DNA from: a virus
Length of the DNA: 49,576 nt
IMG/VR virus record: IMGVR_UViG_3300009034_000060
Location: 1 to 49,576 of that record
Direction: 5' to 3' (one strand)
Shown here: piece after piece, positions 2,822-45,250 of the stretch
Numbering within the stretch: position 1 is the stretch's first letter
Layout of the letters: each line of letters begins with the position of its first letter
Program-made: the position numbers and the translations under genes
The notes under the pieces: generated by a model
Told to the model about the DNA's origin: nothing
The model's database searches: none
What the model saw: only the letters and a program-made list of their open reading frames with translations

Positions 2822-2847
2822 CACCTCCTATTGCTTCACCGAGGACT
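2822..2847 (-). repeat. Leader repeat C, copy 1
   Basis: 26 bases matching 10928-10953 with one mismatch. The coding strand reads AGTCCTCGGTGAAGCAATAG then GAGGTG. In this copy the first part also encodes the last codons (SSVKQ, stop) of the upstream gene; in the other copy it lies after the stop codon. Confidence 0.88.
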
Positions 2848-3136: not shown

Positions 3137-3141
3137 CTCCA

Positions 3142-3170
3142 CCTCCCTCCGTTTCAGCGTGTCCGACGGC
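3142..3170 (-). repeat. Leader repeat D, copy 1
   Basis: 29 bases matching 11128-11156 with two mismatches. The coding strand reads GCCGTCGGACACGCTGAAAC followed by GGAGGGAGG, the ribosome site for the next gene. In this copy the upstream gene stops inside the repeat (TGA). Confidence 0.85.
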
Positions 3171-5396: not shown

Positions 5397-6179
5397 TCAC
5401 TTCCCCTCTACTTCGGAAACACCTAAATTTAATTGCTTATTATCCATCACCTTTTCGTCTGACATTGCGATAACACTATTATAGCCATTGTCGACTGAAT
5501 CATATTTGTCAATCCAGTATTGCTCTCTTTCAGTTAAATATTTTTTATCATTTGTTTTTAATTCTTCTATTATTTCAAAAGTCCAGTCTGATATTTTACT
5601 TTCTCTAATAGCCGTATGAAATTTATTATCTCCTGATTGAAAAAAATGTTGATACCACCGCAACGTAAATGCCTGTGTTGTTTGCCCTATATAACACTGG
5701 TCGGTTATCTTATTTGTTATTTTATATATTTTTGATGGATATTTATCTTCATAAAAATTATTACTATTCTTTTCTCTCCATTCTTCCCTTGCAATACTAT
5801 TGCATTTTTCAGAGCAATAAGAATGGCTTCCGCCGCGCGAACCAATGTTATATTTATCAATAATTCTAAAGGTATTTTCACATTGTTCACATTTTTTATA
5901 TTCAAAAAATCCTCTTATAAATGAATCTCTATCATTGAGTTCCTGAATACGTAATAAAAAATTATTAGAATCTAAGTCTTTTGACAATACACGCATAGGA
6001 AATTGTTTGCTATATTCTTGTTCTATAAGTTTTTTTGCCTCTTTCCGACTTTCACTCATCACAAGACCCGAATAAATAGGAGGCCAAGACCAATTACTAC
6101 TATTGCCATAAATAGAAAAAGTATCATCTTCGTCGCTTTCAATTCTCTTGCCTTTTATCTGATAAAAATATTCCATCAT
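5397..6179 (-). CDS. GIY-YIG homing-type endonuclease
   Basis: 260 residues. The C-terminal half holds a GIY-YIG domain: KIYKITNKITDQCYIGQTTQ at about residues 150-170 (the usual GIYxI/YIG pair appears as KIYKI and CYIGQT), a conserved Arg in FTLRWYQHF and a catalytic Glu in LTEREQYWIDKY near residue 218. Ahead of it lies a zinc finger (CEQCENTF ... YCSEKCNS). The N-terminal 90 residues may be a DNA-binding region. No intron or intein is visible around it, so it is probably a free-standing mobile endonuclease inserted between early genes. Confidence 0.85.
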   Translation of the reverse strand: MMEYFYQIKGKRIESDEDDTFSIYGNSSNWSWPPIYSGLVMSESRKEAKKLIEQEYSKQFPMRVLSKDLDSNNFLLRIQELNDRDSFIRGFFEYKKCEQCENTFRIIDKYNIGSRGGSHSYCSEKCNSIAREEWREKNSNNFYEDKYPSKIYKITNKITDQCYIGQTTQAFTLRWYQHFFQSGDNKFHTAIRESKISDWTFEIIEELKTNDKKYLTEREQYWIDKYDSVDNGYNSVIAMSDEKVMDNKQLNLGVSEVEGK

Positions 6180-6219
6180 TTCACTTCCCCTATAACATAG
6201 TTTACGTAGTTGAACAAAT

Positions 6220-6435
6220 CTATATGCCTAACCTTCTACATAAGCGCCTTATTTGATATTCGTATTCTTCCGGGGTTAAGTTCAATGGCCTAAGTTTTCT
6301 TTTTTCTTCTTCGTATTCAAAATATTTATCCATGTGTCCTTCCGCATATAATTCATTTACTTTTTCTAGTGCCCTAACTTTTTCGTTAGCCTCTATTAAT
6401 CCTAATTCAAATTTATTAAAGCAATTCTTCTTCAT
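6220..6435 (-). CDS. Hypothetical helical protein, 71 aa
   Basis: Helical, charged protein starting MKKNCFNKFELGLIEANEKV, with a likely coiled-coil region and basic end CRRLGI. Its start lies within the last codons of the primase-helicase gene, so translation is coupled to it. That association hints at a role in replication, but no domain was recognised. Confidence 0.7.
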   Translation of the reverse strand: MKKNCFNKFELGLIEANEKVRALEKVNELYAEGHMDKYFEYEEEKRKLRPLNLTPEEYEYQIRRLCRRLGI

Positions 6436-8083
6436 ATTCCCAACTATACTTTTTATTATTCCTTTCTGAAAATAAATAAAATCTTTTGCTTACAATATCA
6501 AACATCAAATGTATATCTATTTCCTGTTTCCCCCGGAATCTATTTTTTAATATACTGACTTTCGTATCAAAATTTTCTTCTTTCTTCATTCGGACAACAC
6601 GGAAAACATTATCAGCCCTATTAGTTATGTCAATACTTCCGCCTATGTCCTGCTTTTTAAGTTCGCCTATATATTTTCGGGGATGCGCGACAATATGAAC
6701 ATGGGAACGAAACGATAATGCAAAATCTTTTAATCTGCCGACAAATTCGCTTTGCTTTCTATAGTAATCCCGGTCAATACCCTCGTACATTGTTGTCATA
6801 AGATTATCTACATAAAATATTTTACATCCATACCTTCTTGCTGCGTATTCAAAAACCCTCAATATATCTTCCGTTGTAGACGCCTGCATTGAATCGTATA
6901 AAAAAAACTTATTCATATACCAATCTCTAAGTTTCGCTTTTATATGCTTTCTGATATAATATGACGGCGGGCTTTTAAAACTATCTATTTCAATATTATT
7001 TAAACCCGCCATTTGCAATTCTATCCAATATCTGAAAAGTGCTGCCGGGAGTTCTCCACTATAGGCACATATCTGATAGTTCTGCTCAATGCTCTCAATC
7101 ATTATCTGACCCAATATTGTAGACTTACCACTTCCATTCTCGCCAGTCCATATACTTATCTCTCCAGGCATAGCGCCGCCTATTTCATTATCTATCCCGG
7201 AAAGCCCTATTTTTATTTTTTCGGCGTTTTTAATATCAAAAGTCTCTACATCCGCAAGCCTTAATAATTCTCTTATTTTAACTTCTCTTGCGTTATTTAC
7301 CAGTTCTAGCACTTTATCCTTACCGTCACCCTGTAAGCACTCATTTGCGTCTTTAAAGCCTGTATATACTATACTACAGCGCCATTCCCCAAGCCGTTTA
7401 ATAAGTTTATATTGCATTTTCTTCCCAGCTTCGTCATTATCAGCCCATATTATTATTGACTTAAATTTCTCCAGCCAATTCCAGCATAAGTCTATACAAG
7501 TCAAATCCTCCGATCCGCTGGGTACGCTTACGGAATTTTTTATCCCGACTTCATCTAGTGATAGTTTATCCAATTCACCCTCAACTATTATCAAAGGGAA
7601 TTTCGGATCGCAATTATCCATTCCCCAAAATACAGGCTTACCGCCCTTTTCCCGCCATTGTTTTTTATCCAGTGTCCGGTATTTGATTAGCACTAATTCG
7701 CCTTTTTCAAAATATGGGAATACTATAGTATTATTTTTTTCCCCAATCTTCATATTAGTATATGTCTGCTTTGATATACAGCGATTCTTGAAATACTGTT
7801 CTATTTTTGTTGACGGCATTTTCGCTTTTACTTTCGGCTTGATATAATTGTCTTTGCCGTTTATTTCCGAAAAATCAGAAAGCAACTTATAGAATGTGCC
7901 GGACTTACCGCAGTTGCCTCTCTTGCAGTTGAATGTTCGGCTTACTTCATTTAAAGCAAATGTTTCTTTGTCTTTGCCATTTTCTCCTCCCTTGCAATAT
8001 GGACAGTATTTCGGCACGATTTCATCACCTTTTAATTTGAAATCCGGGAAATATTTATCAGCGAATTCTTTAGGTGTTATCAT
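6416..8083 (-). CDS. Bifunctional primase-helicase (T7 gp4/Twinkle type)
   Basis: 555 residues with the full layout. A zinc-binding primase module has CPYC (27-30) and CKRGNC (53-58). A Toprim domain has IIVEGELDKLSL (glutamate near 168) and IIWADNDEAGK (aspartates near 215-217). A RecA-like helicase has Walker A GENGSGKST near 314-322, Walker B KIFYVDNL near 421-428 and a downstream VAHPRK motif. It unwinds DNA and makes primers at the phage fork. With no phage DNA polymerase found, it probably works with the host replicase. The next gene upstream resembles a replication initiator or loader, with which it overlaps by four bases. Confidence 0.93.
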   Translation of the reverse strand: MITPKEFADKYFPDFKLKGDEIVPKYCPYCKGGENGKDKETFALNEVSRTFNCKRGNCGKSGTFYKLLSDFSEINGKDNYIKPKVKAKMPSTKIEQYFKNRCISKQTYTNMKIGEKNNTIVFPYFEKGELVLIKYRTLDKKQWREKGGKPVFWGMDNCDPKFPLIIVEGELDKLSLDEVGIKNSVSVPSGSEDLTCIDLCWNWLEKFKSIIIWADNDEAGKKMQYKLIKRLGEWRCSIVYTGFKDANECLQGDGKDKVLELVNNAREVKIRELLRLADVETFDIKNAEKIKIGLSGIDNEIGGAMPGEISIWTGENGSGKSTILGQIMIESIEQNYQICAYSGELPAALFRYWIELQMAGLNNIEIDSFKSPPSYYIRKHIKAKLRDWYMNKFFLYDSMQASTTEDILRVFEYAARRYGCKIFYVDNLMTTMYEGIDRDYYRKQSEFVGRLKDFALSFRSHVHIVAHPRKYIGELKKQDIGGSIDITNRADNVFRVVRMKKEENFDTKVSILKNRFRGKQEIDIHLMFDIVSKRFYLFSERNNKKYSWEYEEELL

Positions 8084-8718
8084 TTATATATCTTTCTAGG
8101 GGCATATCCGTCTTGTTTAGGTTTTTCTTTTATCCATGTCCTTACCGCTGCTTTCCAGTCTTTCATCTTGTTTTTGCCTATCTTCCAACCTACAGCCGTA
8201 TAATGGTTATACCATTTCTCCGCATCAATATTATACTTCTTTTCCGATATGTAATCTTTAACTTGTTGTAAGGCTGGCGGTATATTCTTATCATTCTTAT
8301 CATTCTTATCATTCTTGTATGTTACCATTGGTTTACCAGTGGTTTGCCATTGGTTTACCACTGGTTTACCATTTTTCTGTTTTTCCATTTGATATAATTC
8401 CCATTGATTGACGGTAACTAGAGTAAAATGTGTCATATTTTGGGTTGTAAGATTTCCTATACTTTCTAATTTTTTCAAGCGATTGTATGCACTCCGCCAT
8501 TTCTGTCTTGTTTTTACCCCTGCCCGTTTACTGCCCCAGATGAACTGTCCAGGCAGTAAATGTACTTGCGTTTCGCCTTTGCCTGTCTTTATACTTATCC
8601 ATTCTTCTTTATGGCTTGATCTCACTAAACAATATATCCATATCTGTAATAATGTGGGATTTTTGAATATTCTTGTATCTATTATCCTTCTCCATAGTTT
8701 TATATAGCCTCGGTTCAT
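8080..8718 (-). CDS. Replication initiator / helicase-loader-like protein
   Basis: 212 residues from ATG 8718 (MNRGYIKLWRRIIDTRIFKN); an ATG eight codons earlier is open, but the NRGYIKLWRRI start matches the usual beginning of phage O/DnaD-like initiator proteins. An N-terminal winged-helix region (PGQFIWGSKRAGVKTRQKWR) is followed by a low-complexity linker and a C-terminal segment (YNHYTAVGWKIGKNKMKDWK, AAVRTW) typical of this family. The linker contains three 9-base direct repeats encoding NDK. It is adjacent to the primase-helicase and fits loading that helicase at the origin. Confidence 0.8.
   Translation of the reverse strand: MNRGYIKLWRRIIDTRIFKNPTLLQIWIYCLVRSSHKEEWISIKTGKGETQVHLLPGQFIWGSKRAGVKTRQKWRSAYNRLKKLESIGNLTTQNMTHFTLVTVNQWELYQMEKQKNGKPVVNQWQTTGKPMVTYKNDKNDKNDKNIPPALQQVKDYISEKKYNIDAEKWYNHYTAVGWKIGKNKMKDWKAAVRTWIKEKPKQDGYAPRKIYK
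8290..8322 (+). repeat. 9-bp tandem repeat inside the initiator gene
   Basis: The unit CTTATCATT recurs about three times and encodes the NDK NDK NDK linker on the minus strand. Next to it, two GGTTTACCA-type repeats encode GKPV/GKPM. Simple slippage-type linker expansion; iterated sequence inside initiator genes can also form the phage origin. Confidence 0.7.
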
Positions 8719-8719
8719 A

Positions 8720-9058
8720 TTATGTAATATTTCTCCACCCATTGGGAAACATCTTTTTTAATTCTTCATAACATTCCTTACATAATATCTTGTCTTGCAA
8801 TGCAGGAATTATATACTTTTTCCATTCCGAATCAGGAACCATAAACATATCCGGCCATTGCTGCCCGCACAAACCGCATAAATTCGGTGCTAATATATAT
8901 GGTATGGCAGGCAATCCCTTAATATCATCATTATTGCAATCACAACTAATTAATTGCCCCATACAATTCGGGCATCGTTCCATATCGCAACCGTCTTGAT
9001 GTATTTCACCTTCCTTAACTTCGCAATCGTGGCAATCCCAACTTTCCCATTTTTTCAT
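8720..9058 (-). CDS. Zinc-finger-rich hypothetical protein, 112 aa
   Basis: The start at ATG 9058 (MKKWESWDCHDCEVKEGEIH) is chosen because a perfect GGAGGT lies 4 bases upstream. Cysteine pairs CHDC, CPNC, CDC, CGLCG and CKEC could bind two or three zinc ions. It resembles small phage zinc-knuckle proteins of unknown role. It is the first complete gene after the promoter at 9206-9235 and the structured leader. Confidence 0.75.
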   Translation of the reverse strand: MKKWESWDCHDCEVKEGEIHQDGCDMERCPNCMGQLISCDCNNDDIKGLPAIPYILAPNLCGLCGQQWPDMFMVPDSEWKKYIIPALQDKILCKECYEELKKMFPNGWRNIT

Positions 9059-9059
9059 A

Positions 9060-9182
9060 TTAACCTCCATAATAAAAATGCCCGGCATGGCTGAACGAGG
9101 GCATATTTAGATATGACCTACCACACCGGGCAATAAGATTTAACTCACAAAGTCTGTTTGATTTTTTTGAACCCTCGTTCAT
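9060..9182 (-). CDS. Putative leader peptide ORF inside structured leader, 40 aa
   Basis: An open frame starts at ATG 9182 (MNEGSKKSNRLCELNLIARC), ends at the GGAGGT of the zinc protein gene and closes with TAA at 9060-9062. It overlaps the pseudoknot leader PK1 completely. An AGAGG motif lies 12 bases upstream, a poor distance. If translated, the ribosome would melt the RNA structure, so it could be a regulatory leader peptide. The second copy of the element does not keep this frame, which argues against a conserved peptide. Confidence 0.25.
   Translation of the reverse strand: MNEGSKKSNRLCELNLIARCGRSYLNMPSFSHAGHFYYGG
9079..9181 (-). ncRNA. Pseudoknot leader RNA, copy 1 (PK1)
   Basis: Two interleaved helices are visible on the transcript. 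P1 pairs 9172-9181 with 9092-9101 (TGAACGAGGG with CCCTCGTTCA, 10 bp). P2 pairs 9126-9132 with 9079-9085 (TGCCCGG with CCGGGCA, 7 bp, extendable by G-U pairs to about 11). The arms alternate, giving an H-type pseudoknot. The 3' arm of P2 is followed by TTTTTATT, so P2 alone would look like an intrinsic terminator. The element starts about 18 bases after the predicted transcription start. A second copy with compensatory changes lies at 18537-18616. Confidence 0.7.
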
Positions 9183-9205
9183 TTTTTTTGCTTACCTCTG
9201 GCTAT

Positions 9206-9235
9206 ATTATACTATTATTCCATTAAAAATGTCAA
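9206..9235 (-). promoter_or_regulatory. Strong sigma-70-type promoter for the replication block
   Basis: On the minus strand TTGACA (9235-9230) is separated by 18 bases from TATAAT (9211-9206), both perfect consensus hexamers. Transcription would start near 9199 and run through PK1 into the zinc protein, initiator and primase-helicase genes. The segment just upstream (AATCTC ... GAGATT, 9236-9270) is an imperfect inverted repeat that overlaps the -35 region and follows the methyltransferase stop. Confidence 0.85.
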
Positions 9236-9270
9236 ATCTCATAGGGCTAACTTGCCTTGCCGAGATTCTT

Positions 9271-10350
9271 TCATAAATCAAAATATCTATCCTTCAATCT
9301 TGTCTTTAAACTCATATCCAAATATTCTTTTTTAATATCTATACCAATATATTTTCTGCCTAATTTTCTTGCTACTTTACCAGTAGTTCCGGATCCATGA
9401 AAGGGGTCTAAAATAATGCCTGGCCGGAATCCTGCATTACATCCACAATTTGTATATCCTTTTTCTTTTCTATCTATTACCAATCTCGTTCTTTTTCCTC
9501 CTTTTTTAGCATCTGGGCTTGAACCTAATGCGGGTATCCACTTTCCTTTTGTCTCCTCAATTATTTTTTCTCTTGCTTTGCCACATTTTCTACAAACAAA
9601 TTTCGGGCACCCTGCTTTTATAGGTGTTTCGCATAGTTCTTCGGGGTAGACAGCGAAGTGGGAGTCGGGGAATGGCTTTGTATTTATTTTCCAGATACAG
9701 CGCTTATTTCTCTTTTTATCTTCGCTGTATCTTACTGCTTGCATAGAATATTGACCAGTCAATATCTTGCCTGATTTTGGTGGGACCGGATTATCTGCTC
9801 TTTTATCTACTTCTGCCCAATATGAATATTCCCTTTGCTGTTCAAAATAATATTTTTTATTCTTCACAAAAAAACATACATCTTCAAAATTAACAGTAAA
9901 TCTATCATTTGCACTATCTGGCATAGCATTAGGCTTTTCCCATTCAATTCTATTCCTTAATATCCACCCTCTATCTATCATTCTAATTCTAAAGCGGTCC
10001 GGAATACACAATAGGCATTTGTCGTATTTGCCCTTCGTAGATTGATTTTTTAATACTCTCGCATTTGCCTGTTCACTTCCGGTCCCGCCATAGGCATCTC
10101 CTAAATTTATAAAGCAAGTTCCGGTCGGTTTTAATACTCTCCTTACTCTATCAAATACATTGCAAAGTTTTATAATATATGTTTTAAAGTCCGGTTCATT
10201 ACCAATCTGCCCGGATATTCCATAATCCCTCAATCCCCAATATGGCGGTGAAGTCATTACACAATCAACATAATTATCTGGTAATGTTTCTAGAACATCA
10301 AAAACATCTCCGCAATATAAAGTTATGTCTTTATCTTCGTAATGTTTCAT
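9271..10350 (-). CDS. Site-specific DNA methyltransferase (N4-cytosine/N6-adenine)
   Basis: 359 residues with motif IV near the start (DCVMTSPPYWGLRDYG, residues about 30-45) and motif I near the end (ILDPFHGSGTTGKVARKLG, then YIGIDI). This order is the beta class of amino-methyltransferases. Between them lie a target-recognition region and a four-cysteine zinc site (FVCRKCGKAR ... NCGCNAG). SPPY is compatible with N4-cytosine or N6-adenine methylation. No partner nuclease is present, so a protective orphan enzyme is likely. It starts directly behind leader repeat A, copy 2. Confidence 0.92.
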   Translation of the reverse strand: MKHYEDKDITLYCGDVFDVLETLPDNYVDCVMTSPPYWGLRDYGISGQIGNEPDFKTYIIKLCNVFDRVRRVLKPTGTCFINLGDAYGGTGSEQANARVLKNQSTKGKYDKCLLCIPDRFRIRMIDRGWILRNRIEWEKPNAMPDSANDRFTVNFEDVCFFVKNKKYYFEQQREYSYWAEVDKRADNPVPPKSGKILTGQYSMQAVRYSEDKKRNKRCIWKINTKPFPDSHFAVYPEELCETPIKAGCPKFVCRKCGKAREKIIEETKGKWIPALGSSPDAKKGGKRTRLVIDRKEKGYTNCGCNAGFRPGIILDPFHGSGTTGKVARKLGRKYIGIDIKKEYLDMSLKTRLKDRYFDL

Positions 10351-12224: not shown

Positions 12225-12962
12225 TTACTTTTTAACAATCTTAATTATTCTACTTTTAACCATTGTCCCGCTTGTCTTAAAAGTTCCCTTGTCGTTTTCA
12301 TAAATTACTGCATTAGTATCTTTAAGAAACTGTCTGAAATTCACAGATGTTTTATTGTCTCTAAAAAATGGGCTTTCGCTTATGATAGCTACCATTATTC
12401 CGCCAGATACCAAGCATGAATAAGCATGGAGTGCGTGTTGAATATCTTGTTGTTTTGTAAATGGGGGGTTCATAATTATTCTATCATATTTCATACCGGT
12501 ATTCATAAAGTCATCACATATAACATTTGCATAGTGTTTTTCCCTTAATTTATTTGCAAATATTTCATTTTTCTCTATAAGTGTAATATCCCTCATATTA
12601 TCTATCTCGTCTGCAATGGCACCTAATCCGGCACTTGGTTCCAATACGCTACAATCGTCTGTAATTTCAGCCATCTCAACTACTTTTATTGCAAGTTCTC
12701 TTGGGGTTTCAAAAAATTGATTATCTTTTTTTAAATCAATTCTTTCCCCTGTGTCTAATATTTTATTAAATAGTTCCTGCGGGTTTGTATCAAAAATATG
12801 CCCCTTCTGTTTTCTATTCCATTTACCCCCGATGCCAGTTAGACATTTATTGACTTTCATATAAATATCTCTATCTAATTGCCCTTGAGGCAAATAAACG
12901 ACATTACCTTCAATTCTACACTTTCCTAAAATTTCTTTAATTTCTTGTTCAATCACATTCAT
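12225..12962 (-). CDS. DNA adenine-N6 methyltransferase-like protein
   Basis: 245 residues. Motif I is CSVLEPSAGLGAIADE near residue 105 and motif IV is DRIIMNPPFTKQQDIQHALH near residue 160, with catalytic NPPF typical of gamma-type N6-adenine enzymes. The N-terminal 85 residues (QGQLDRDIYMKVNKCLTGIG) are a separate module often seen in phage versions of this enzyme. It is the third clear DNA methyltransferase of the genome and has no nuclease partner. The start overlaps the stop of the 51-residue membrane protein. Confidence 0.87.
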   Translation of the reverse strand: MNVIEQEIKEILGKCRIEGNVVYLPQGQLDRDIYMKVNKCLTGIGGKWNRKQKGHIFDTNPQELFNKILDTGERIDLKKDNQFFETPRELAIKVVEMAEITDDCSVLEPSAGLGAIADEIDNMRDITLIEKNEIFANKLREKHYANVICDDFMNTGMKYDRIIMNPPFTKQQDIQHALHAYSCLVSGGIMVAIISESPFFRDNKTSVNFRQFLKDTNAVIYENDKGTFKTSGTMVKSRIIKIVKK

Positions 12963-34129: not shown

Positions 34130-36652
34130 TTATACTGAAGTACCTTCGTTTGCGTAGATGCCTTTATTCTCAATGATTTCCAGTCCATATTCAAATCTCA
34201 CTTTATAGCGGATTCTGTCATTCGTGAATACTTCACCGAGAGCTGGCTGATCCTGCAATACAAGTACCGGTGTCCTCTGGTTATCCACATACCCGACTTC
34301 TATCATGTCAATCTGTGTCTTATCCGCTGTCAAATACCAGTAATACTGGTAAGTGGAACCAGCGATATAAGGACAATAGATCGGTTTCAAATCCCTGTGG
34401 ATATTTATTTCATTCTCATTATTATCAAAACGTTTCTCACTCTTTAACGCATCAATTATGTGCTGAAGTTTTGAACCGTAGATAATATATTTAGCTTCCA
34501 ATCCAACTTGCTCATCATCATTCTTCGCTGTAGAAATTTCATATTTAGTTGTAGCGTCGGGTTGTGTAGTAATTGCAGCAAAGGTCAATTTAGTTGCCGT
34601 ATTACTAGCGATAAGAGACATTTGTCCTGCTCCTGTTCCATAAACCAATCGCACATAATAACCTGCAAACTCGTTTACAGTCCAAGCTTTCGATGAATCA
34701 GAAAGAGTCGTGGTTGCATAATCACCATCTGCTGTTCCAGAATCCTGCGCTGCGCCTCTTTCTTTCTGTTCACGTATCCCCGTCTTTGCTGTAGTTATAT
34801 TATCATAACCACAAGCACTAGTGGAATAGTTTCCAAAAAGCGTAGAGAATACAGTTGAATTTGTCGGCGTATATGTGCCATTCGCTAGAAGCAAACTAGC
34901 AACATCTCTCTCAAGAGTTCTTCTTGAAGCCCTGCCTATCATTGAAGGAATGCGTCTTACTAAATTTAAGTCGTCATTCTTCAAAGTTTTCCTGCTTACG
35001 CTTACATACCCGCCTTTGGTTGCCGGCGTATAGGTCGCTTCCTCGTCCTTCGGCTCATAAAGATCGACATATGCTGCGTCTTCCGTTATAGCCGGAAGGG
35101 TAGAATACCCGCCCCACTTCACTCTCTCTTGCTGTTTGAAATTTGTCACAGGTACTTCTGTAACAATGGGGTCAAACGCAAAAGGTTTTACTTTAAACTC
35201 TTTTACGAGTTTGCGAGTCATAGACGTACCTAAAGCATAAGTAAAATCAGCGGTAGTTATCGCTTCGGTAAGCCTCCTTGTATGGGTCATTCTGTCAATA
35301 TTGCCAGTTATATTCGGGTCTTCTGGGTGTGCAACACGATATGCTTCTTTCAAGCTAGTGAATCCGGGAATATTCTTCATATTCTCAGGTACTTCAGCGT
35401 CGTCATCTACCATTTTGTCCATTGCAACCTGAAATTTGTCTCCCTCATCCAGAGTAACTTCAACACGACTCTGCCCAAGTCCTTTGACATTACCGGACTC
35501 GGAAAGTTTTGCTAATACATCTTTTTCAATCTTGATTGCTTCCTGTAGTTCATCTTTCTTGAAGATTTTATCAGCAAACTGTTTTCTGATTTTTTCTTTT
35601 ACCGGTTCAAGCAGCTTTGCTTCCGCAAGAACTTCGGAAAGAATCGCCTGACTTTTCGCCAGTGCATTTTCTCTCTCCATCTTCGCTATTGCTTCTTTCA
35701 TCTCCTTCATTTCCTTTGAATCTTCTTTCTTTTCTTCCGGCTTCTCTTCTTTCTTCTCTTCTGGTTTTTCGTCTTTCTTTTCCTCTTCAGACGCTTGTGT
35801 TTTTGCGGGATAAGGATATCCGTACTTTTTTAATCTGGCTGATAAGTCTTTCAGAACAGCCAGTGCTTTAGCGTCTTTCACAAGTTTAAGAAGTTTTTCT
35901 ATTGCGTCAGCAACAAAACCTTCTTTTAAAATCTCCTCCACCTTGCCATCAGCGACAGCGGTTTCCATAAGAACTACAAACTGTTCATCTGTGACATTTT
36001 CAGAATCAATGCCTTCCACTAGGTCGGCGTGTTTCTCTTTCAACATTTCAATCAGTTTCTTAATGAAATTCATCTCATTTCCTCCTTCATTCATACTTGC
36101 AACCAATCGTAAGAATCCGCCTCCGGCAGCCTCGTTTGTTACGGGGTCAGCCGAAGTCAAATTATTTATTTCTAATACTCTATCTATTTCTCTACCATTA
36201 GAGATTTCTCTTTCCACTTTTCCGCCACCGTCAATGGATATACCCAACATTTTTTCTTTCCCGTGTTCCCAAGTTTCTTTCAGGAAATCTTTTAACCATT
36301 GCGCAGTCGCATGAAATGTTCCCAATACACCTTCCTTAACTTCCCCGTTTTCATCTTTAAAATTTCCATATCGGATATTGTCATACCATCCAGCAAGATT
36401 TTTTACGAAACCCTGTGGCATAGTACTGCGGGCAAATTCAGGAAGATGGTTAAAGACTTTGCCTTTGAATTCATAAGCAAAGGCTTTCAAATTCTCAAAA
36501 AGCGGTAATGCTTTCTTGAGAACCTCTTTAGAATAAAACTTGTTGTTCTTAGACAGACCAGGCTGAATGATTACAACGTCCCATTCCCTACCTTCTTTGT
36601 CTTTAGACTCAACAAGTCGGAACACACTAGAAGTTTTAATAGAATTTTTCAT
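34130..36652 (-). CDS. Fused prohead protease, scaffold and major capsid protein, 840 aa
   Basis: Residues 1-190 match a prohead protease: VVIIQPGLSKNNKFYSKEVL, HLPEFARSTMPQGFVKNLAG, MLGISIDGGGKV and SADPVTNEAAGGGFLRLVAS. Residues about 270-420 are a charged scaffold with EEKK/EKPEEKK repeats. From about 430 the HK97-type capsid core begins (VEVTLDEGDKFQVAMDKMVD and later VPVTNFKQQERVKWGGYSTL), interrupted near 635-710 by the beta domain also present in the tail tube protein. An internal ATG at 36073 (MNFIKKLIEMLKEK) has AAGGAGG 7 bases upstream, so a separate 647-residue scaffold-capsid product is likely. The outer start at 36652 has no ribosome site and a terminator-like hairpin just before it. 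Confidence 0.88.
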   Translation of the reverse strand: MKNSIKTSSVFRLVESKDKEGREWDVVIIQPGLSKNNKFYSKEVLKKALPLFENLKAFAYEFKGKVFNHLPEFARSTMPQGFVKNLAGWYDNIRYGNFKDENGEVKEGVLGTFHATAQWLKDFLKETWEHGKEKMLGISIDGGGKVEREISNGREIDRVLEINNLTSADPVTNEAAGGGFLRLVASMNEGGNEMNFIKKLIEMLKEKHADLVEGIDSENVTDEQFVVLMETAVADGKVEEILKEGFVADAIEKLLKLVKDAKALAVLKDLSARLKKYGYPYPAKTQASEEEKKDEKPEEKKEEKPEEKKEDSKEMKEMKEAIAKMERENALAKSQAILSEVLAEAKLLEPVKEKIRKQFADKIFKKDELQEAIKIEKDVLAKLSESGNVKGLGQSRVEVTLDEGDKFQVAMDKMVDDDAEVPENMKNIPGFTSLKEAYRVAHPEDPNITGNIDRMTHTRRLTEAITTADFTYALGTSMTRKLVKEFKVKPFAFDPIVTEVPVTNFKQQERVKWGGYSTLPAITEDAAYVDLYEPKDEEATYTPATKGGYVSVSRKTLKNDDLNLVRRIPSMIGRASRRTLERDVASLLLANGTYTPTNSTVFSTLFGNYSTSACGYDNITTAKTGIREQKERGAAQDSGTADGDYATTTLSDSSKAWTVNEFAGYYVRLVYGTGAGQMSLIASNTATKLTFAAITTQPDATTKYEISTAKNDDEQVGLEAKYIIYGSKLQHIIDALKSEKRFDNNENEINIHRDLKPIYCPYIAGSTYQYYWYLTADKTQIDMIEVGYVDNQRTPVLVLQDQPALGEVFTNDRIRYKVRFEYGLEIIENKGIYANEGTSV
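36071..36073 (-). promoter_or_regulatory. Internal translation start for scaffold-capsid product
   Basis: This ATG lies inside the protease-capsid frame. AAGGAGG is placed 7 bases upstream, the best ribosome site in the gene. It would make the capsid precursor without the protease, which would set a low protease to high capsid ratio. Confidence 0.7.
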
Positions 36653-36793: not shown

Positions 36794-38455
36794 CTAACTG
36801 TTCAGCACAAGTTTTCCACTATGAGTCTTAATAAGTTTATAAGTACGTTCCCCGCATTTAAGTTCAATTGGGAATTCCGAATCTTCAATGTCAAATCCTT
36901 CAGTTAGTTTTTTGCCAGGCAGAATCCCTTTTGAAAATACCCATATTTCGGAAGCCGGATCGGTTCTTCTCATTACCCAACGTCCTTTTAATTTTTTCCC
37001 TTTAAACTCAAAATGCGAAAACATCGGTGTATCTTCTATCCAATTAACTTGGCCTGAATCTATTATTTCCATGTATGCTGGAATCTGTTCATTTGGATTT
37101 CCATATTTTAAGCCACCCTTATTACCCGTATATAAATTCTCCCACTGATCTAACCATGCCTTTTGACCTGTTTTAAATTTAGCGAAAGTTTCTTTTGTTT
37201 CGATGCGAGTTCCTTTCTTGTCTTCAACCAGATATTTTTTATCTAATTGTTTTAAAACTTTTATTTCTTTGAGTTCAGCGTCTTTCGCCGGGATACTCCC
37301 CTCAAAGTTTAACCATTCTTTCGGTTCTTTTCTTTCTGGAGTTTCAAGAGTCGCCTGCTTGCGTCTGGCATTTACACTCTCTTCAACTAATGGGTTGCCC
37401 CATGATTTACCACCGTATAAATTCCATTCATCAGGAAACTCCTCTCCAATATCTATTAATAAATCATGGTGCGAATCGCTTGCTGGTAGCTCTCGCACAA
37501 CCTTCGGCCCCATCCACCAGTGAAAACGAATCATAAATTTTCCTGTCTTTTCTCTCAATGATTCTTTAATTTCTATCGGTCTTGCTTTTATTTCTTTACG
37601 TTCAACCAAATCATTGAAAGCCAAATCAAGACGTTTCATTCTTTCTTTTGGTTTCAAGCCTTTCGCCCACCAGCGATATTCTTCTTTAATCTTTTCTTCC
37701 CATTCTGGCGGTAATGCTTTCTCTCCCTCTTTCGGGATATAATCTTTTTTAGTTCTGCCACGTTTGGAAATGATATAGGGTAACTGTTCTTCTGTCATCC
37801 ATGTTTGCCACTGTACGCCAGCTTTCGGAGGTTTCTTCCATTCGGGTCTTACCCCAAGCAGACGTTCGACCATTCGCCCTTTAAAATATTTCATATCCAA
37901 AAAGAATTCTTTGAAGAAAGGTTTCTGTACTCCGGGATATGTCAACCCTTCGTCCATAGTTATAAATGTTCCCCACTCAAATTTTGTGGCGCCCACCGAC
38001 TCTGGTGGGTATGCAACTTCTCTGATGTTTAACCAAATCAAAGGCTGACTGGCTTTCGGAACTATTACTGCTTTCTTTGTCGGGTCCATGTCTGGCCGGA
38101 ACTTGCCTTTCTCTAATAACACTTTATTCCATTTCTTACCCTTTTCAATTGTATCAACTTCTTCTGTAATGAGTCCAGCAGGGGCATTCAGAATTGTTTC
38201 ACCTTCTAGATTCCCGTTTTGTTTTCTTCTGAAATCCAAATGAACAGACTTGCCTCTGAAATGATTCACCATGATAGCATAGTCTTTCGGGTAATCTTTC
38301 GGGTCTCTTCGTTTGCCACGTTTAACCGCTTCGGCTTCGGCAAGATGTAGCAACTCCACAGGCGGGTCAAAATGCTCTCGTTCAATATCTTCTGCTAACC
38401 ATTTATAAAATTCTAGTAGTTCTTTTTGGCGTTTGAGTTCTTTTATTTCTATCAT
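36794..38455 (-). CDS. Tandem LigD-phosphoesterase-like protein, 553 aa
   Basis: Two repeats of a DNA 3'-phosphoesterase-like fold can be traced. Repeat 1 has YAIMVNHFRGKSVHLDFRRK (His65, His72, Asp74, Arg76), WLNIREVAYPPESVG and FFLDMKYFKGRMVERLL. Repeat 2 has FHWWMGPKVVRELPASDSHH then DLLID, WLNFEGSIPAKDAEL and HFEFKGKKLKGRWVMRR, ending WVFSKG. These correspond to the H..HxDxR, FEGxIP and KLKGxWxLVR motifs of the phosphoesterase domain of bacterial/archaeal ligase D. That domain trims 3' ends before sealing. The gene overlaps the upstream ligase gene by four bases (a coupled operon). Catalysis is unproven and the spacing of the first His pair is one residue longer than usual. Confidence 0.65.
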   Translation of the reverse strand: MIEIKELKRQKELLEFYKWLAEDIEREHFDPPVELLHLAEAEAVKRGKRRDPKDYPKDYAIMVNHFRGKSVHLDFRRKQNGNLEGETILNAPAGLITEEVDTIEKGKKWNKVLLEKGKFRPDMDPTKKAVIVPKASQPLIWLNIREVAYPPESVGATKFEWGTFITMDEGLTYPGVQKPFFKEFFLDMKYFKGRMVERLLGVRPEWKKPPKAGVQWQTWMTEEQLPYIISKRGRTKKDYIPKEGEKALPPEWEEKIKEEYRWWAKGLKPKERMKRLDLAFNDLVERKEIKARPIEIKESLREKTGKFMIRFHWWMGPKVVRELPASDSHHDLLIDIGEEFPDEWNLYGGKSWGNPLVEESVNARRKQATLETPERKEPKEWLNFEGSIPAKDAELKEIKVLKQLDKKYLVEDKKGTRIETKETFAKFKTGQKAWLDQWENLYTGNKGGLKYGNPNEQIPAYMEIIDSGQVNWIEDTPMFSHFEFKGKKLKGRWVMRRTDPASEIWVFSKGILPGKKLTEGFDIEDSEFPIELKCGERTYKLIKTHSGKLVLNS

Positions 38456-41100
38456 TTTATTGCTCTCCTGATTTCCGCCTCATCTGCATTGTGATGTTCT
38501 TGCATAAACTCAATATATTTTTCTATGCTTTCAATTGAATCTATTTCGGAATATTCGGGCGTTAGACTTTCATATAAAGTTTCGCCTTCTTTAGTTATAC
38601 GTTTGACTTGTAAAACTTTATTTTTCCTAGCACGATTTAGAACATCAGTAATAGTATCGGTTTCTTTTGGTACTGCCATTTCAACGTTTTCCAAAACAAT
38701 AAATCTTGGCGCCCATGCCGATACCGAAACCGTTCCTGTCTTTTCATCTTTAATAAAATTAAATGTCTCAAACTCAATAGCGATCGTTTCGCCAACATCA
38801 AGTTTTGTGTCCGTATTAAAACTTTTCCCGACTTCAATTAGTTCTTCGCCTTTGACTTCAGCAAGATTCTTTTCTTCAACATTGTAATCTTCCGGGTCTA
38901 TACCGTATCTGTAATTAAATATCGTCGGTACTTTGGTTGTAATACGTTCAATAACTTTACCGAATATCATTGCATTATTGTGGAACTTAATCCAGCCATC
39001 TCTTGACCTGCCGTCAAGGTAATATTTAGAATCTGATTTTTTGCCAACGTTCCCCTCACTGGCTATTTTCCACCTGACTTCTTCGGTATGTTTACGAAGT
39101 TCTTTTTCAGAATGTGATAATAAATTCGGCACAAGATTATATTTCTTTTTCAAGTCGGGCACATCCCATGTGGATTGTGGTATACCTATTTTCTTTAGAG
39201 CTTCCTGTCTAGCACTTTCAGTTTCTTTATGTAAATCCTTTCCGTCAAGATATAAAATTGTATAGACATTAGAAACTAAATTAGAATCATCCGCTGGAGT
39301 TTTAGCGTGAATGTATCCGGCCGTTGCTTCACGAGGCCGATGAGATTTATTGTCCCACGCTTCAAGTTCCGCTTCAATAAGTATCTGTTTAAAATTAAGA
39401 TTCCATATTTGTTCCTGATGCTGCGGAAGTCTATCGGTTATCAGTTCGCCATCCTCACTCCAGATTTCTATTTTCTTTTTCGGTTTATCGGCAAATACTA
39501 GAATCCGCATTCCATCATATTTCTTTGAAGAGAAAATTCCGTTCTTATAATCTTCCGGCATAAACAAGGAAACAAAAAAATCTACTGTCATCCTCTCATT
39601 CGGTTTAGCTGCTCTGGTCGGTTTCATTCCCTGATAAAACCTGAACATTCTAATCTTATCTTCTACCCTAGAGTCTTTCATCATCTTTAAAACATCTTTC
39701 TCAGTTGCACGGGGTTCCTGTTCCTGTAGAGCCATTTTCAAAAGTTCTCTTTCGGATGGCGGAATCATTTCTACTTTAAGTCTCGCCAGAGGGACATAGT
39801 TCGTAAACTTGCCTTCGGGTTCTGGAACAAGATGGGGTAAACTTTCTTTGTCTTTGGGCAACATCGACCGTAGCCTAAAATCAAGTACATTCAAAAGCCT
39901 TGAACACTGTGGGCATTTTTCATTTGGTTCTAAATTTACCCAAATATCATTATCGGTTCCGTACCCTGAAACTGCTGTGCCACCTGTCAATGCAAGAAAT
40001 GGGTCTTTTAAATAAAAATCTTTATCCCAATATTTTATAGCATCTTTCAAAAATGATTTCCCTTTGACGTCTTCTTTGAGTTTAAGCATATCCAGTTCTT
40101 CTTTCGGTCTGTGTTCAAGCCCACGTTCTTTCATCAAATCAAGAATTAAAAGATGCGCATTTATTACAAGTTCGTCATCTTTCCGTTTGCCTCTCTGTTC
40201 AAAGATTTCATGTATCTCCGCATGTCTCTGGATAAGTTCCATATCGGAAAGTTCAGATAAAACTTTAGCATCAAATCTTTCTGGTTTAAAATCGGATTCT
40301 TTTAAATCTTCTCGATTTCCAAATACTCCATCATTCATAGATTCAACAAAATGTGATTTTACCCTAGGTATAAAATCCCGAACTTTATATTGATACTGGT
40401 TATCTTTCTTTTCTGGGGAATCTAACCGTATATATCCTATCTCCTTTTTATCGTCTAATACCGAATAGAAATTACCCACAATAAATTTTTTCTCAAGTAA
40501 TATTTCTTTACCTTTTGCGATTCTTTCAAGGGATTCTGAAACACCTGTTAATTTGATATATTTTTTGACAATCTTATCAAATGCTTTTAAGTATAATTCT
40601 TTCGGATTGTCTTTCCAGTTCTCAGGGTGGAATTCTTGTTTGCCCCGTTTAAGGATTTCTTTTAATGCGGGAATAGTAAATTTATTTAGTATTTCAGATT
40701 CGGAATATTTGAATTTACCCGTATCTTTCAAAGTAGAAATCCAACTTCCGAATATTCTCCAGTCATCCGCCAGTTGGTCGTTTCGCATCTCCTCTGGCTT
40801 GTATGGTAATACTGCTTCTTTCAATCCAAATTTCCTCTTGAGTTCTGGCGATATATTCGGATTTGAATTATCACCAAATTTTTTAGCCGCTTCCCCATCT
40901 TTAATTTCCTTTGCAGAATCTATATCATGCCATCCATCACCAGTAGTTGCCCATTTTTTTAAACATCCCTCACAAAACCAAGCATGTGCCCGTCCCTCCG
41001 CCCACAAAATTTCATACATAGGAGTTTTACTGCATAACATACAAGTATCATGTCTATGTTTTGCTTCTTTAAGTGGTAATGTATAACAACAAATTCTCAT
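38452..41100 (-). CDS. ATP-dependent ligase with nucleotidyltransferase-like region, 882 aa
   Basis: Start ATG 41100 (MRICCYTLPLKEAKHRHDTC) has GGGAGG 8-10 bases upstream; a longer frame overlaps the minor head gene. A zinc region has CMLC and CEGC (about 20-46). A polymerase-beta-like nucleotidyltransferase signature is LTGGTAVSGYGTDNDIWV (371-388, with DxD). The adenylation domain has motif I SSKKYDGMR (Lys527), motif III-like ILIEAELEAW (Glu578) and motif IV-like RDGWIKF (701-706, Asp instead of Glu). An OB-fold-like end contains DVGETIAIEFETF and SAWAPRFIVL. These are the marks of an ATP-dependent DNA (or RNA) ligase. Together with the downstream phosphoesterase-like protein it resembles a split ligase D, but it is encoded between head genes. 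Confidence 0.72.
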   Translation of the reverse strand: MRICCYTLPLKEAKHRHDTCMLCSKTPMYEILWAEGRAHAWFCEGCLKKWATTGDGWHDIDSAKEIKDGEAAKKFGDNSNPNISPELKRKFGLKEAVLPYKPEEMRNDQLADDWRIFGSWISTLKDTGKFKYSESEILNKFTIPALKEILKRGKQEFHPENWKDNPKELYLKAFDKIVKKYIKLTGVSESLERIAKGKEILLEKKFIVGNFYSVLDDKKEIGYIRLDSPEKKDNQYQYKVRDFIPRVKSHFVESMNDGVFGNREDLKESDFKPERFDAKVLSELSDMELIQRHAEIHEIFEQRGKRKDDELVINAHLLILDLMKERGLEHRPKEELDMLKLKEDVKGKSFLKDAIKYWDKDFYLKDPFLALTGGTAVSGYGTDNDIWVNLEPNEKCPQCSRLLNVLDFRLRSMLPKDKESLPHLVPEPEGKFTNYVPLARLKVEMIPPSERELLKMALQEQEPRATEKDVLKMMKDSRVEDKIRMFRFYQGMKPTRAAKPNERMTVDFFVSLFMPEDYKNGIFSSKKYDGMRILVFADKPKKKIEIWSEDGELITDRLPQHQEQIWNLNFKQILIEAELEAWDNKSHRPREATAGYIHAKTPADDSNLVSNVYTILYLDGKDLHKETESARQEALKKIGIPQSTWDVPDLKKKYNLVPNLLSHSEKELRKHTEEVRWKIASEGNVGKKSDSKYYLDGRSRDGWIKFHNNAMIFGKVIERITTKVPTIFNYRYGIDPEDYNVEEKNLAEVKGEELIEVGKSFNTDTKLDVGETIAIEFETFNFIKDEKTGTVSVSAWAPRFIVLENVEMAVPKETDTITDVLNRARKNKVLQVKRITKEGETLYESLTPEYSEIDSIESIEKYIEFMQEHHNADEAEIRRAIK

Positions 41101-41966
41101 TACGCAAACCTCCCTAAAAACGGCACGCTTGCGCACTCGCAGCCCACCGTATTCTCCGCGCTTCCAGCCGGATCACGTGGGTGCATAAGTTCTTCGCCAG
41201 ACACAATGAACGGGTCATCAACTTTCTGCACCTGGTCGTGTGCTGCGCGATGGTCTATAATCTGTCCTGAGATAGGAGAACGTCTTGGAGTTTTCCTCGG
41301 TTCACCCGGACCACGTACTCTTTCACTTTGCGTTGTTACCCAGCGTTTCATCAAATCCGGTACTTGTTCTTTAGCCTGGTTCATGCGTGCCTGATTCGCC
41401 ATAGAATATACTCGATTGACTTCTGTTCTTACAATGCGTTCTGTTCTCCATGTAACACCCTTCTTTTCTTTTACTTTAAAAACCTCTTTATCAATCTTTT
41501 TCATTGCCTGCCATTGGGTTTCTTTGCCAAGTATAGCATTATTGAGTCTCACTGATATCTTATTAAACATATCCCTTTCTAAATCAAGTATCATATCTGC
41601 CGCGTAGCCCTGAGTTATAACCAATAGCTCATCGCTAAGAAGCGGTAAGGCGGTCACTATTTTAGCCGCCTCCAGTGGCTCATCCGCAAGTTTTATACCC
41701 AGTTCCCATGATTTGCCCATTTGTTCATTCGTAAGTCCTTGTAATTCTGTCCTATATCGCCTGATCCTTGCAGTTAGTTCATCTTTTATTCTAGGCAAAT
41801 AAGCTGCGTCCCAGCCTTCAGCAGTTGCAATTGCATTTCTGATATCTCTTCGTACCATTTTAGTAAAATGTAAGGCCTTGCGTGCAGTCTCTTTATTTAG
41901 CTTTTCTGCCTGCTTTAGAAGCGCATTCGTTCTTTTAATAAAAGCGTTACGTTCTCTTACTGGCAC
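41100..41966 (-). CDS. Minor head protein (SPP1 gp7 / Mu gpF type), 288 aa
   Basis: N-terminal helical region, then VTWRTERIVRTEVNRVYSMA and a C-terminal HRAAHDQVQKVDDPFIVSGE with MHPRDPAGSAENTVGCECAS. The PRDP ... CxC ending is typical of the Mu F/gp7 family, which sits inside the head near the portal. It follows the portal gene (20-base overlap), as in SPP1-like phages. Confidence 0.87.
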   Translation of the reverse strand: MPVRERNAFIKRTNALLKQAEKLNKETARKALHFTKMVRRDIRNAIATAEGWDAAYLPRIKDELTARIRRYRTELQGLTNEQMGKSWELGIKLADEPLEAAKIVTALPLLSDELLVITQGYAADMILDLERDMFNKISVRLNNAILGKETQWQAMKKIDKEVFKVKEKKGVTWRTERIVRTEVNRVYSMANQARMNQAKEQVPDLMKRWVTTQSERVRGPGEPRKTPRRSPISGQIIDHRAAHDQVQKVDDPFIVSGEELMHPRDPAGSAENTVGCECASVPFLGRFA

Positions 41967-43437
41967 TTTCTTTTACCTCATCAATAGCTTTCTTCAAATT
42001 AGACTGGTTATAATCCTCAACGGATTTCTTTAATAGTTCTTCTTTAATCTTTTCTTTTTCTGCCGGAGAAACTTCCGCACCTAATTGTGATAACAGAAAC
42101 GCATATACTTTGCTTGCGGTATCATCGGAAATCCATTCCTGTTCGGTAGCGACTTGCAAAGAAGTTGTAACCGATACCAATGCAGTAGCCATTTCCGCAA
42201 CGTCTTTGCCTACAAGTCGGGGCAAGTTAATAGTAAATTTTTTATTAACATCTTTCGGAAGAACTCCGTGAATAACTTTCTGGTCTATAACGAATCTGAA
42301 TATATGCGATACCATATACTTAAAATACTTCTGTCTGGATTTGAGCATTTTAAAAGCCGGAGTCCCCATCTCCAGGGCCGTTGCTCTCGTTATGCCTTCA
42401 CCGCCAGCAAACCAATGCGGTGGAAGTCCTGCCCCGCCGAGTATATGATTTCTGAAAAGTCTTGCTTCGTTTGATGCGTCGGCAGATTCCAGTTTCGGGG
42501 TGGCAGCCTGCCATTTTACTTTCTCGTTGTGAGCTCTCATTGAACCGGGTTTAGGTATCTTCTGATTTCTTATCCATTCATCTATCTGTTCATTATTTAA
42601 TCCTTGAAGTTCAATGTCCCATAAGAAGCTATTCAGTAAATGTGCCCTTTCTCCCCTGTTAAACAAAAACCTTTCGTAAGCATCTATCCAGTCGGCTAAT
42701 GCCAATAAATCACTTCTACCTCTTAAAGCATTAGAAACTTTGTTTATAGCGAAATTAAAACATTCTCCTATCCACAATCCATAAGTCTCGCTTTTCGGGT
42801 CGTTGTCAATGTTAATAGTCTTATAAGTTCTGGATTCAACCCCGAGCCCCTCAGCTCCTCTGGTTTTTATTTCAACAATTTCTTCAACGTTATCAGGATT
42901 AGGAACAACTTTCCAGACTAAAGACGGGTCAAGATACCCCATACGGACATGTCCGTTTTCAGGATTCACGAATACGGGATAAAACTGCTCACCATAAATT
43001 CCCAGTTCCTTAATCTTCTGTTCTTGTTTTAAATCCCACAGATTAACCGGGTCGTTCCAGAATTCGTCTAATACTTCTTTAACTCTTTTATCTTCGGCTT
43101 CATAAGTCAGGCCTTCGCCTATAACAAAATCTTTTGTCATCTCAATTATACGATGCGCTATGGGATTGCGGTCGTACAGATACCAGGCTATTTCCAGCAT
43201 GCGCTCATGTTTTACCGGCAGTAAATCTCTGTCAACAACTCTTGCAGTCAGGGGTCGCCAATAAATATCGTCTTTATGCCGTTCGTAGGCAGGTATACTT
43301 TCCTGAATCTTTTTATCAACATAATTACCGGCAAGTTCGAGACGGTCGCCCTTAACCAGTTTATTATTCAGATAAACTAATTGCTGTTTTTTCGAATCCC
43401 ATTTAACCTTTTTCCCATCAAGTATAATATTATCCAT
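41947..43437 (-). CDS. Portal protein, 496 aa
   Basis: Recognisable portal pattern: AHRIIEMTKDFVIGEGLTYE, DLKQEQKIKELGIYGEQFYP, ALRGRSDLLALADWIDAYER and a late GGAGLPPHWFAGGEGITRAT. Dodecameric portal rings drive packaging and join head and tail. The order TerL, portal, minor head is standard. Confidence 0.92.
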   Translation of the reverse strand: MDNIILDGKKVKWDSKKQQLVYLNNKLVKGDRLELAGNYVDKKIQESIPAYERHKDDIYWRPLTARVVDRDLLPVKHERMLEIAWYLYDRNPIAHRIIEMTKDFVIGEGLTYEAEDKRVKEVLDEFWNDPVNLWDLKQEQKIKELGIYGEQFYPVFVNPENGHVRMGYLDPSLVWKVVPNPDNVEEIVEIKTRGAEGLGVESRTYKTINIDNDPKSETYGLWIGECFNFAINKVSNALRGRSDLLALADWIDAYERFLFNRGERAHLLNSFLWDIELQGLNNEQIDEWIRNQKIPKPGSMRAHNEKVKWQAATPKLESADASNEARLFRNHILGGAGLPPHWFAGGEGITRATALEMGTPAFKMLKSRQKYFKYMVSHIFRFVIDQKVIHGVLPKDVNKKFTINLPRLVGKDVAEMATALVSVTTSLQVATEQEWISDDTASKVYAFLLSQLGAEVSPAEKEKIKEELLKKSVEDYNQSNLKKAIDEVKESASKRT

Positions 43438-43447: not shown

Positions 43448-45250
43448 TTAAATCAACGACCTTCGCTGGTATATATAATCTTCTTCATCTTCCTGATAAT
43501 TGGAATCTGCCTCAGAATCCAGCCCGCCACAAGCCGGCAGTATTGTTTCTTCTTTCATACAATGATACACCGCACCGGCCACACCATCAGCAATATCTTT
43601 TGTAGCGCCTTTCTTATGGTCTACTTTCTTTCCGGAAACCAGTTCAAGATTTTTTAATTCATTCTCAAGAACTCTATTATGGTATGTTTCTACATTGCCT
43701 AGGTATATCTGTTCTTTCAATGTATCCTGGACTTCTTTATTGACGTTTAAAAACTCCGCTTCCAACCCTTTCTTTTTCAGCGGCTGATACAAACTCACTG
43801 CTAGGTATGTATCATAAGAAACTTTTTTTATTGTGGGGAATCTATCTAATATCAGCAATAAGAATTCCTTAACCCGTTCATAGTCTATCTCGCCTTCTTT
43901 AACTCTAAACCTGTGAGCTAGATCGGATATAACTCTATCTCCCACTCTATGTGCTAAACCAATACCAAACCCGCAATTGTTAACCGCCGGATCGAGATGT
44001 AAATAATAATCAAATTCCATATTGCCTTTAAAAAATTCTTTAAATGAACCGTCTTGATTAATCGGATTAACCATGCCTTTAGTTTTACCACGTTCAAACA
44101 TTACTGGAATTTTTTCGGGGTCACGATAATATGCTTCCAGAGACTGAGAAGGTCTGGCCCCGAAATCACGCCAGAATGCTTCGGGATTCTTCTTCAACTC
44201 TTTCTGCATGAACGCACAATCAAACGGCAGGTTGGGATTCATCTCCCATGTCGGCAGCCAGAAGCCCAACATTCCATCTATCTTGAAACAATCCTGAAAC
44301 AACCTCATTATCTTGTCTTCGGTATGTATTGGGGAAGATATTGAAATAACTTTGCCTTCACCTTTAAAAGGCGCAACCGAATGAGTTAGAGCTTCGTATA
44401 CGGCATCACCGGAAGAACGGCCTTGACTATCAGTAAATCTCGCTATCTCATCAAATAGAACAAGTTTCGGCAACAATCCTACTAAACTGGAACTATTACT
44501 ATGTCCCGATCTTATTTTAATATTATTCTCAAATTCTACTGTGAATTCCGTATCGGAGGGTTTTCGACTCTGGTAAAAGGGTGAATTGTTTATAATACTC
44601 TTTGTTGAAGCGAATATCGTATCCCGGGCCTGGTCTCTGTTGGTAGCAACATTAATTAAAAATATCTCTTTGCCTTTAGGGAATCCGTAATATTCGCAAG
44701 GATCGCCTTTATTCCATAACTCTTTTTCTTCGATACAAGTTATAACCCCTGCAAGTGTAGTCTTGCCGGATTTCATCCCGCAATTCAATGCGAGTTCGTT
44801 GTATGTCTTTCCCTCTTCCCAGTTAGTTTTCTTTTCTTCACGGAGTTTATTTAGTTTATCTTTTTCTTCATCGGTAAGTTCCAATGAATAAAATGCCTTT
44901 AAGATAAGTTTCTGCATGGGGAATAATTTTATATTAAGAAATCGGGAGTGTTCAACAAAGTCTATCGGATTAATATCAACTTCATCTGTATTCCTTACCC
45001 GCCTCTCCCAGCGTTTCTTCTGTGCGTCCTGATACCTCTGGTCTATCTTCTCAAGTATATCTAACGGGATATCCATTTTCTTCCATCTGGCTACTGTCTG
45101 GCGGGACCGGATATTATATTTATCCATTAACTCATCCCATGTCATCTCTTTTGCGTCTTTTTGAAATGAGAGTATTGTCTTCCACCAGCGTAATTTCCGC
45201 CGGTTCTTAACTAATACTTTATATCCTTTGGGTCTGCCTCGTTTTCTCAT
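43448..45250 (-). CDS. terL: Terminase large subunit with N-terminal HTH, 600 aa
   Basis: ATPase Walker A NCGMKSGKTTLAG near residue 160, Walker B PKLVLFDEIAR near 263, and a nuclease domain with DYYLHLDPAVNNCGFGIGLA, IKKVSYDTYLAV and ATKDIADGVAGAVYH (acidic residues for metal binding). The N-terminal 70 residues contain MTWDELMDKYNIRSRQTVAR, a helix-turn-helix that may replace a separate small terminase, which was not found. It packages DNA into the procapsid through the portal. Confidence 0.94.
   Translation of the reverse strand: MRKRGRPKGYKVLVKNRRKLRWWKTILSFQKDAKEMTWDELMDKYNIRSRQTVARWKKMDIPLDILEKIDQRYQDAQKKRWERRVRNTDEVDINPIDFVEHSRFLNIKLFPMQKLILKAFYSLELTDEEKDKLNKLREEKKTNWEEGKTYNELALNCGMKSGKTTLAGVITCIEEKELWNKGDPCEYYGFPKGKEIFLINVATNRDQARDTIFASTKSIINNSPFYQSRKPSDTEFTVEFENNIKIRSGHSNSSSLVGLLPKLVLFDEIARFTDSQGRSSGDAVYEALTHSVAPFKGEGKVISISSPIHTEDKIMRLFQDCFKIDGMLGFWLPTWEMNPNLPFDCAFMQKELKKNPEAFWRDFGARPSQSLEAYYRDPEKIPVMFERGKTKGMVNPINQDGSFKEFFKGNMEFDYYLHLDPAVNNCGFGIGLAHRVGDRVISDLAHRFRVKEGEIDYERVKEFLLLILDRFPTIKKVSYDTYLAVSLYQPLKKKGLEAEFLNVNKEVQDTLKEQIYLGNVETYHNRVLENELKNLELVSGKKVDHKKGATKDIADGVAGAVYHCMKEETILPACGGLDSEADSNYQEDEEDYIYQRRSLI

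Follow-up and report, generated by a model that had tools for sequence, protein, structure and literature searches.

Gene context of the locus

The window analysed here is the whole of a 49.6-kb IMG/VR virus record from an uncultured phage, whose head, tail, endolysin, primase-helicase, RecT and methylase genes lie nearly all on the minus strand. Two genes of this record, encoding a ligase and a phosphoesterase (PE) protein, sit between the portal and MuF-like genes on one side and the capsid gene on the other, and the features of this region are as follows.

43448..45250, minus strand: terminase large subunit (phrog_17415, 3e-18)
41947..43437, minus strand: portal protein (phrog_10963, 3e-52)
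41100..41966, minus strand: MuF-like head morphogenesis protein (phrog_2468, 8e-23)
38452..41100, minus strand: ligase gene, 882 aa, with nucleotidyltransferase (NTase)-like region, ATP-dependent DNA ligase and OB domain
40957..41058, minus strand: N-terminal zinc-binding-like C..C / C..C region (from sequence)
40597..40806, minus strand: N-terminal helical domain conserved in the family (family profile, E 4e-30)
39730..39999, minus strand: nucleotidyltransferase-like region, GG (385-386) and DND (395-397)
38980..39636, minus strand: ligase adenylation domain, KYDG (K539), E590, R602, EG...K (694-699), K717
38701..38967, minus strand: OB-fold domain, motif VI partly degenerate (PRFIVLENVE)
36794..38455, minus strand: PE gene, 553 aa, with two LigD-type 3'-phosphoesterase-fold units and a joining middle domain
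37850..38278, minus strand: PE unit 1, invariant H65, H72, D74 and R76; Q137, W141
37622..37828, minus strand: middle domain conserved across the family, with no LigD match found
36899..37558, minus strand: PE unit 2, some catalytic residues lost (H and HHD present, Arg absent)
34130..36652, minus strand: fusion of protease, scaffold and major capsid in one gene, immediately downstream (Phage_capsid_4, 9e-28; head maturation protease phrog_133, 1e-40)

Both reading frames, the 882-residue length of the ligase protein, the four-base overlap between the genes and all the motifs quoted in the initial annotation of this DNA are present, as is the location within the head operon, flanked by the MuF-like gene and the capsid gene. 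The ligase gene starts at the ATG at 41100, which is closely preceded by GGGAGG and overlaps the stop of the MuF-like gene in TAATG; an alternative GTG start at 41136 would give an 894-aa protein, and the Lys527 around which an adenylation fold was first expected is Lys539 in this longer numbering. The PE gene in turn starts inside the ligase stop codon (ATGA, 38452-38455), a junction of the kind typical of translational coupling. Searches of PHROGs with the ligase and PE proteins gave no useful match, and no second PF01068 ligase was found in the window besides that at 38452-41100. The window also carries three methyltransferase-like genes, at 1342-1989 (C5 cytosine), 9271-10350 (N6/N4) and 12225-12962 (RrnaAD/MTS-like).

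Domains of the ligase and phosphoesterase proteins

Motifs, profile and predicted fold together identify the product of ORF 38452-41100 as an ATP-dependent DNA ligase, as had been proposed. The Pfam DNA_ligase_A_M model matches residues 532-718 (E=1e-16, 61.7 bits against a cut-off of 26.2), and adenylation motifs I and III-V are present. Across 36 aligned relatives E590, R602, R643, E694, G695 and K717 are invariant, while K539, D541, G542 and K699 are retained in 34-35. The AlphaFold model of the ligase and OB domains has a pLDDT of about 95 and its top PDB matches in Foldseek are DNA ligases (E=1.6e-17); within the family, 37 of 44 members score against the DNA ligase model, the best at 2e-27. 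The OB fold is predicted at high pLDDT, and in its motif VI PRF is retained and R-x-D-K is not conserved, a partial degeneracy because of which self-adenylation could be weak. In a quick, midpoint-rooted tree with several long branches, four LigD ligases fall together with other cellular references in a clade separate from the viral ligases, and we therefore do not call the viral enzyme LigD-derived.

The two regions noted at the outset upstream of the adenylation domain fared less uniformly. The zinc region (C..C...C..C) is present in the window and absent from its closest relatives. In the region described as polymerase-beta-like, the G-G...D-N-D motif stands and the modelled beta-alpha-beta-alpha-beta-beta order fits the nucleotidyltransferase superfamily, but profile support is weak (best Pfam match NTP_transf_2, E 0.011, in one of 24 relatives; pol beta palm profile, E 0.028, in a single member) and the profile of the region found no match in the PDB. 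Across relatives the G and DxD are conserved and the third acidic residue is not. A polymerase-beta-like nucleotidyltransferase is thus a plausible identity, going by motif and predicted topology.

Profiles match both halves of the PE protein, giving a two-repeat structure, and by these matches and its predicted fold the gene product consists of two LigD-type PE units with the PE beta-barrel, in agreement with the initial annotation except for the degeneracy of unit 2 in the clade that contains the window; the H..HWDLR of this unit is kept in some relatives. LigD_N is sub-threshold on the window protein alone (E=0.11) and matches 21 of 48 family PE members (best 1e-9), and the PE1 family profile aligns with true LigDs at their PE domain (hhalign, 97.7%, E=8e-12). 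The AlphaFold model of the PE protein has a pLDDT of 85, and its seven Foldseek matches in the PDB below 0.001 are all LigD-PE structures (prob 1.00). For neither protein, then, was an adenylation or PE fold lacking, nor were matches confined to head proteins.

In PE unit 1, H65, H72, D74 and R76 correspond to LigD H42, H48 and D50, which form the Mn triad, and R52, and are kept in 48 of 48 members. At the positions of LigD His84 and Tyr88, mutation of either of which abolishes activity of the LigD PE (PMC8656161), all 48 members present Q/E and W, with Q137 and W141 in the window. Read from the alignment, PE1 is a remodelled active site which keeps the metal site and replaces the phosphate-site pair; since this replacement extends to all members, PE1 may use another substrate or just bind DNA.

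A polyprotein family at the head locus

Scans of IMG/VR and of GTDB genomes, with ANMV-1 added, gave 74 contigs including the window, a set that contains near-identical and truncated contigs; about 70 other virus or metagenome contigs, archaeal viruses included, carry the set of domains. A single-sequence PE scan of IMG/VR returned no matches and an alignment-based scan 58 loci, and a search of predicted folds in BFVD gave one confident match (A0A516LT18). The commonest architecture is a single ORF with the order NTase-ligase-OB-PE-MID-PE (MID, middle domain). The split pair first described is real in the window, and some relatives are likewise split at OB|PE, but many are single polyproteins. 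The order is rearranged to NTase-PE-ligase in L035 and L036, PE is duplicated or triplicated within the family, and MBL-fold hydrolases and Dam methylase occur in the polyproteins of 10 and 7 of 44 members respectively. Four contigs (L036, L045, L049 and L054) hold an XkdF head-maturation protease within the polyprotein ORF. The adenylation domain is not detectable in L045-47 and L054, which keep the remaining module, suggesting a non-enzymatic role in some members. Ku was found in none of 29 virus records, many of them fragments, as the initial annotation had it for this phage.

Other members vary further. The adenylation domain of L011, L012, L013, L020, L023 and L031 is split, at one and the same point in these six contigs, over two consecutive ORFs, the second with OB, NTase and PE. 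In L016, whose ligase gene is also split, the insert holds an unrelated ORF, with no Rfam group I or II intron found there. MBL-fold hydrolase-like domains form the N-termini of L033, L028 and L057, fused before NTase-ligase, and in one member (L025:4356-9251) an apparent HAD/PNK3P-type phosphatase and a 2H phosphoesterase are added to NTase-ligase-PE. Intein-like insertions are seen in L026 (562-885 aa), L033 (816-1175 aa), L028, L029, L037, L057 and L058; their sites include ligase motif I (L026, L033), the PE1 catalytic region (L058), the NTase region and the junction between ligase and OB, several end in HNC or HNS, and the set has Pfam LAGLIDADG and intein matches. L019:4092-8903 bears a large insert at aa ~110-700 that has a PEGA-like part and a GHCG motif of gingipain/caspase-like appearance.

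The position of the window module, which had been thought unusual, is no quirk of this phage, since the head locus is the rule of the family. With head genes labelled from PHROGs-identified seeds and then by iterated profile searches, and without manual checking of every label, 59 of 74 contigs have capsid or protease genes downstream, no more than 7 kb from the module, and 38 of 74 have portal, MuF or terminase genes upstream; several contigs in which head-gene neighbours were not seen break off within the module or immediately beyond it. The order from portal/MuF through the module to protease/capsid is never reversed in the 74 contigs. The adjoining portals and capsids come from a number of different families, so that the link is to the head locus and not to one head lineage.

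Two large PolB viruses, G024 (contig L043) and G030 (contig L057), have an extra stand-alone ligase about 49 and 91 kb from the polyprotein, and tens of kb separate the polyprotein from the polymerase gene in most of the records that carry PolB. The separate ligases and this distance argue that the polyprotein is not simply the replicative ligase. The stand-alone enzymes are ATP-dependent ligases of 547 and 582 aa, located at 77695-78195 of the L043 contig and 32733-33224 of the L057 contig.

Known systems and proposed function

Bacterial LigD combines a ligase, a PE and a primase-type polymerase and works with Ku. The viral set resembles it in joining an ATP-dependent ligase and a PE fold in one protein and in the metal site (H/H/D and R52), but has neither Ku nor an AEP primase-type polymerase domain, for which no match was obtained, and its ligase falls outside the LigD clade. 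Unlike that of LigD, the viral PE has His84/Tyr88 replaced, is repeated and comes with a middle domain without LigD match, and the viral set has an added NTase-like domain and is encoded in a head operon. The initial description of a rearranged LigD, or any label of LigD homologue, is rejected on the polymerase, Ku and clade comparisons, and the differing phosphate-binding residues also set the PE apart. Stand-alone archaeal LigD-like PE proteins (PDB 3p43, 3p4h, 5dmp) are among the seven significant matches to the PE model; they are single small enzymes, whereas the viral PE is repeated, has an altered phosphate site and belongs to a polyprotein or two-unit protein. Phage use of end joining is exemplified by mycobacteriophages Omega and Corndog, where a phage Ku and a borrowed host LigD circularise the genome (Pitcher 2006, as cited in PMC7719229); here, in contrast, what the virus supplies is a ligase/PE protein, with no Ku. 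The N4 virion RNA polymerase is a giant enzyme carried in the phage particle (PMC12633501), but it serves transcription, where DNA joining by a putatively packaged protein is proposed here.

The reading that we favour, at slightly better than an even chance, is a head-associated DNA end-healing and sealing polyprotein enclosed in the procapsid and acting on viral DNA. It starts from the folds, most of the catalytic residues, their conservation, the head-operon position and, in some relatives, the head-protease fusion, all of which are observed; what we infer is that the proteins are active enzymes, that they are in the virion and at which step they act. The intein-like insertions at ligase motif I and inside PE1, and the recruitment of further nucleic-acid enzymes (PNK3P-type phosphatase, 2H phosphoesterase, MBL-fold hydrolases, Dam methylase) into the polyproteins, also count in its favour. 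The two genes would form one virus-specific machine, which in the window is split at the translationally coupled junction. First the PE half, a metal-dependent domain of the 3'-end phosphoesterase type, would tidy the 3' ends, nucleotides may be added or filled in by the NTase-like domain, and the ligase half would self-adenylate on Lys539 and seal nicks or ends. Made with the head proteins, the polyprotein would enter the procapsid in the manner of scaffold-associated or internal proteins, and the head maturation protease would probably free or separate its parts there; these could then seal nicks or join ends of packaged or newly ejected DNA, Ku-free, the sequence not discriminating between action during packaging and after ejection. 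Judged from gene arrangement the polyprotein is probably enclosed in the procapsid: head position by itself does not prove packaging, and the idea is strengthened by the in-frame fusion of the XkdF protease in four relatives.

That fusion, together with the separate ligase of the two large relatives and a head-module position kept in nearly all of the ~70 contigs despite differing heads, argues against an intracellular repair or replication ligase with a 3'-end-processing partner, which would act on Okazaki nicks or breaks, would not be in the particle and would owe its late-operon place to an accident of gene order. Such an enzyme would account for the intact catalytic ligase motifs and for a window that has primase-helicase, RecT and methylases yet no other PF01068 ligase, and we regard it as unlikely. 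Somewhat more doubtful is a structural role, as scaffold or internal head protein, for domains that derive from enzymes, now mainly bind DNA and organise DNA or portal-proximal assembly. The often degenerate PE unit 2, the absence from PE1 of two residues essential in LigD (PMC8656161) and the loss of the adenylation domain from L045-47 and L054 would suit this role, but the near-invariance of the ligase Lys, Asp, Gly, Glu and Lys (34-36 of 36) and of the PE H/H/D/R (48 of 48) across very divergent sequences points to kept catalysis.

Very improbable in our estimate is an RNA end-healing system, of RNA ligase, 3' phosphoesterase and CCA-like nucleotidyltransferase, delivered early by the capsid to mend nuclease-cut host or viral RNAs. 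Matches to Pfam RNA_ligase in three members, mRNA_cap_enzyme in six and the NCBIfam RNase Z model in nine speak for it, as do the 2H phosphoesterase and PNK3P of one member and the fact that the LigD PE also trims ribonucleotides (PMC8656161); against it stand the DNA ligase matches in 37 of 44 members (best 2e-27), with an OB domain, and top structural matches that are DNA ligases.

Extended to the family, the DNA end-healing reading becomes the more tentative one, rather short of an even chance, of a widespread class, unrecognised until now, of tailed bacterial and archaeal viruses which would carry a Ku-free end-joining polyprotein as protease-released capsid cargo, repairing or circularising the genome at delivery. 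In that class the polyprotein would comprise nucleotidyltransferase, ligase and PE repeats, and sometimes a 3'-phosphatase, MBL hydrolase or methylase. End repair by ligase and PE is known cellular machinery, and here a related set is wired into a viral head-assembly module, in viruses associated with Bacteria as well as Archaea, sometimes with a head-protease fusion. The particles of many viruses may contain a virus-encoded kit for DNA-end repair; if packaged, it would help to explain how viruses handle nicks and ends of linear DNA on entry, and would be a source of new Ku-independent joining enzymes.

While the enzyme families are known, the architecture, the active-site variant and the head-locus wiring appear new, and we found no paper in the open-access literature describing the polyprotein. 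No NHEJ components turned up in a survey that covered about 3,000 actinobacteriophages (PMC7719229). Of 50,697 phage records, searched with divergent members as queries too, ANMV-1 alone was found to have the module; the other matches listed all fell on the fused protease domain, except for one ligase (H16). The 'ATP-dependent DNA ligase' of ANMV-1 (KP703175) has the identical NTase-ligase-OB-PE-MID-PE order in one 866-aa protein; it is annotated simply as a ligase, and the text of the ANMV-1 paper (PMC4372165) does not mention 'ligase'. Adjoining it is the product of 1913-3193, which carries the annotation 'MutT-like phage hydrolase' and resembles a portal protein. A 1166-aa 'hypothetical' cysteine-rich protein of the same virus (5868-9368) has an end resembling a MuF-type head protein.
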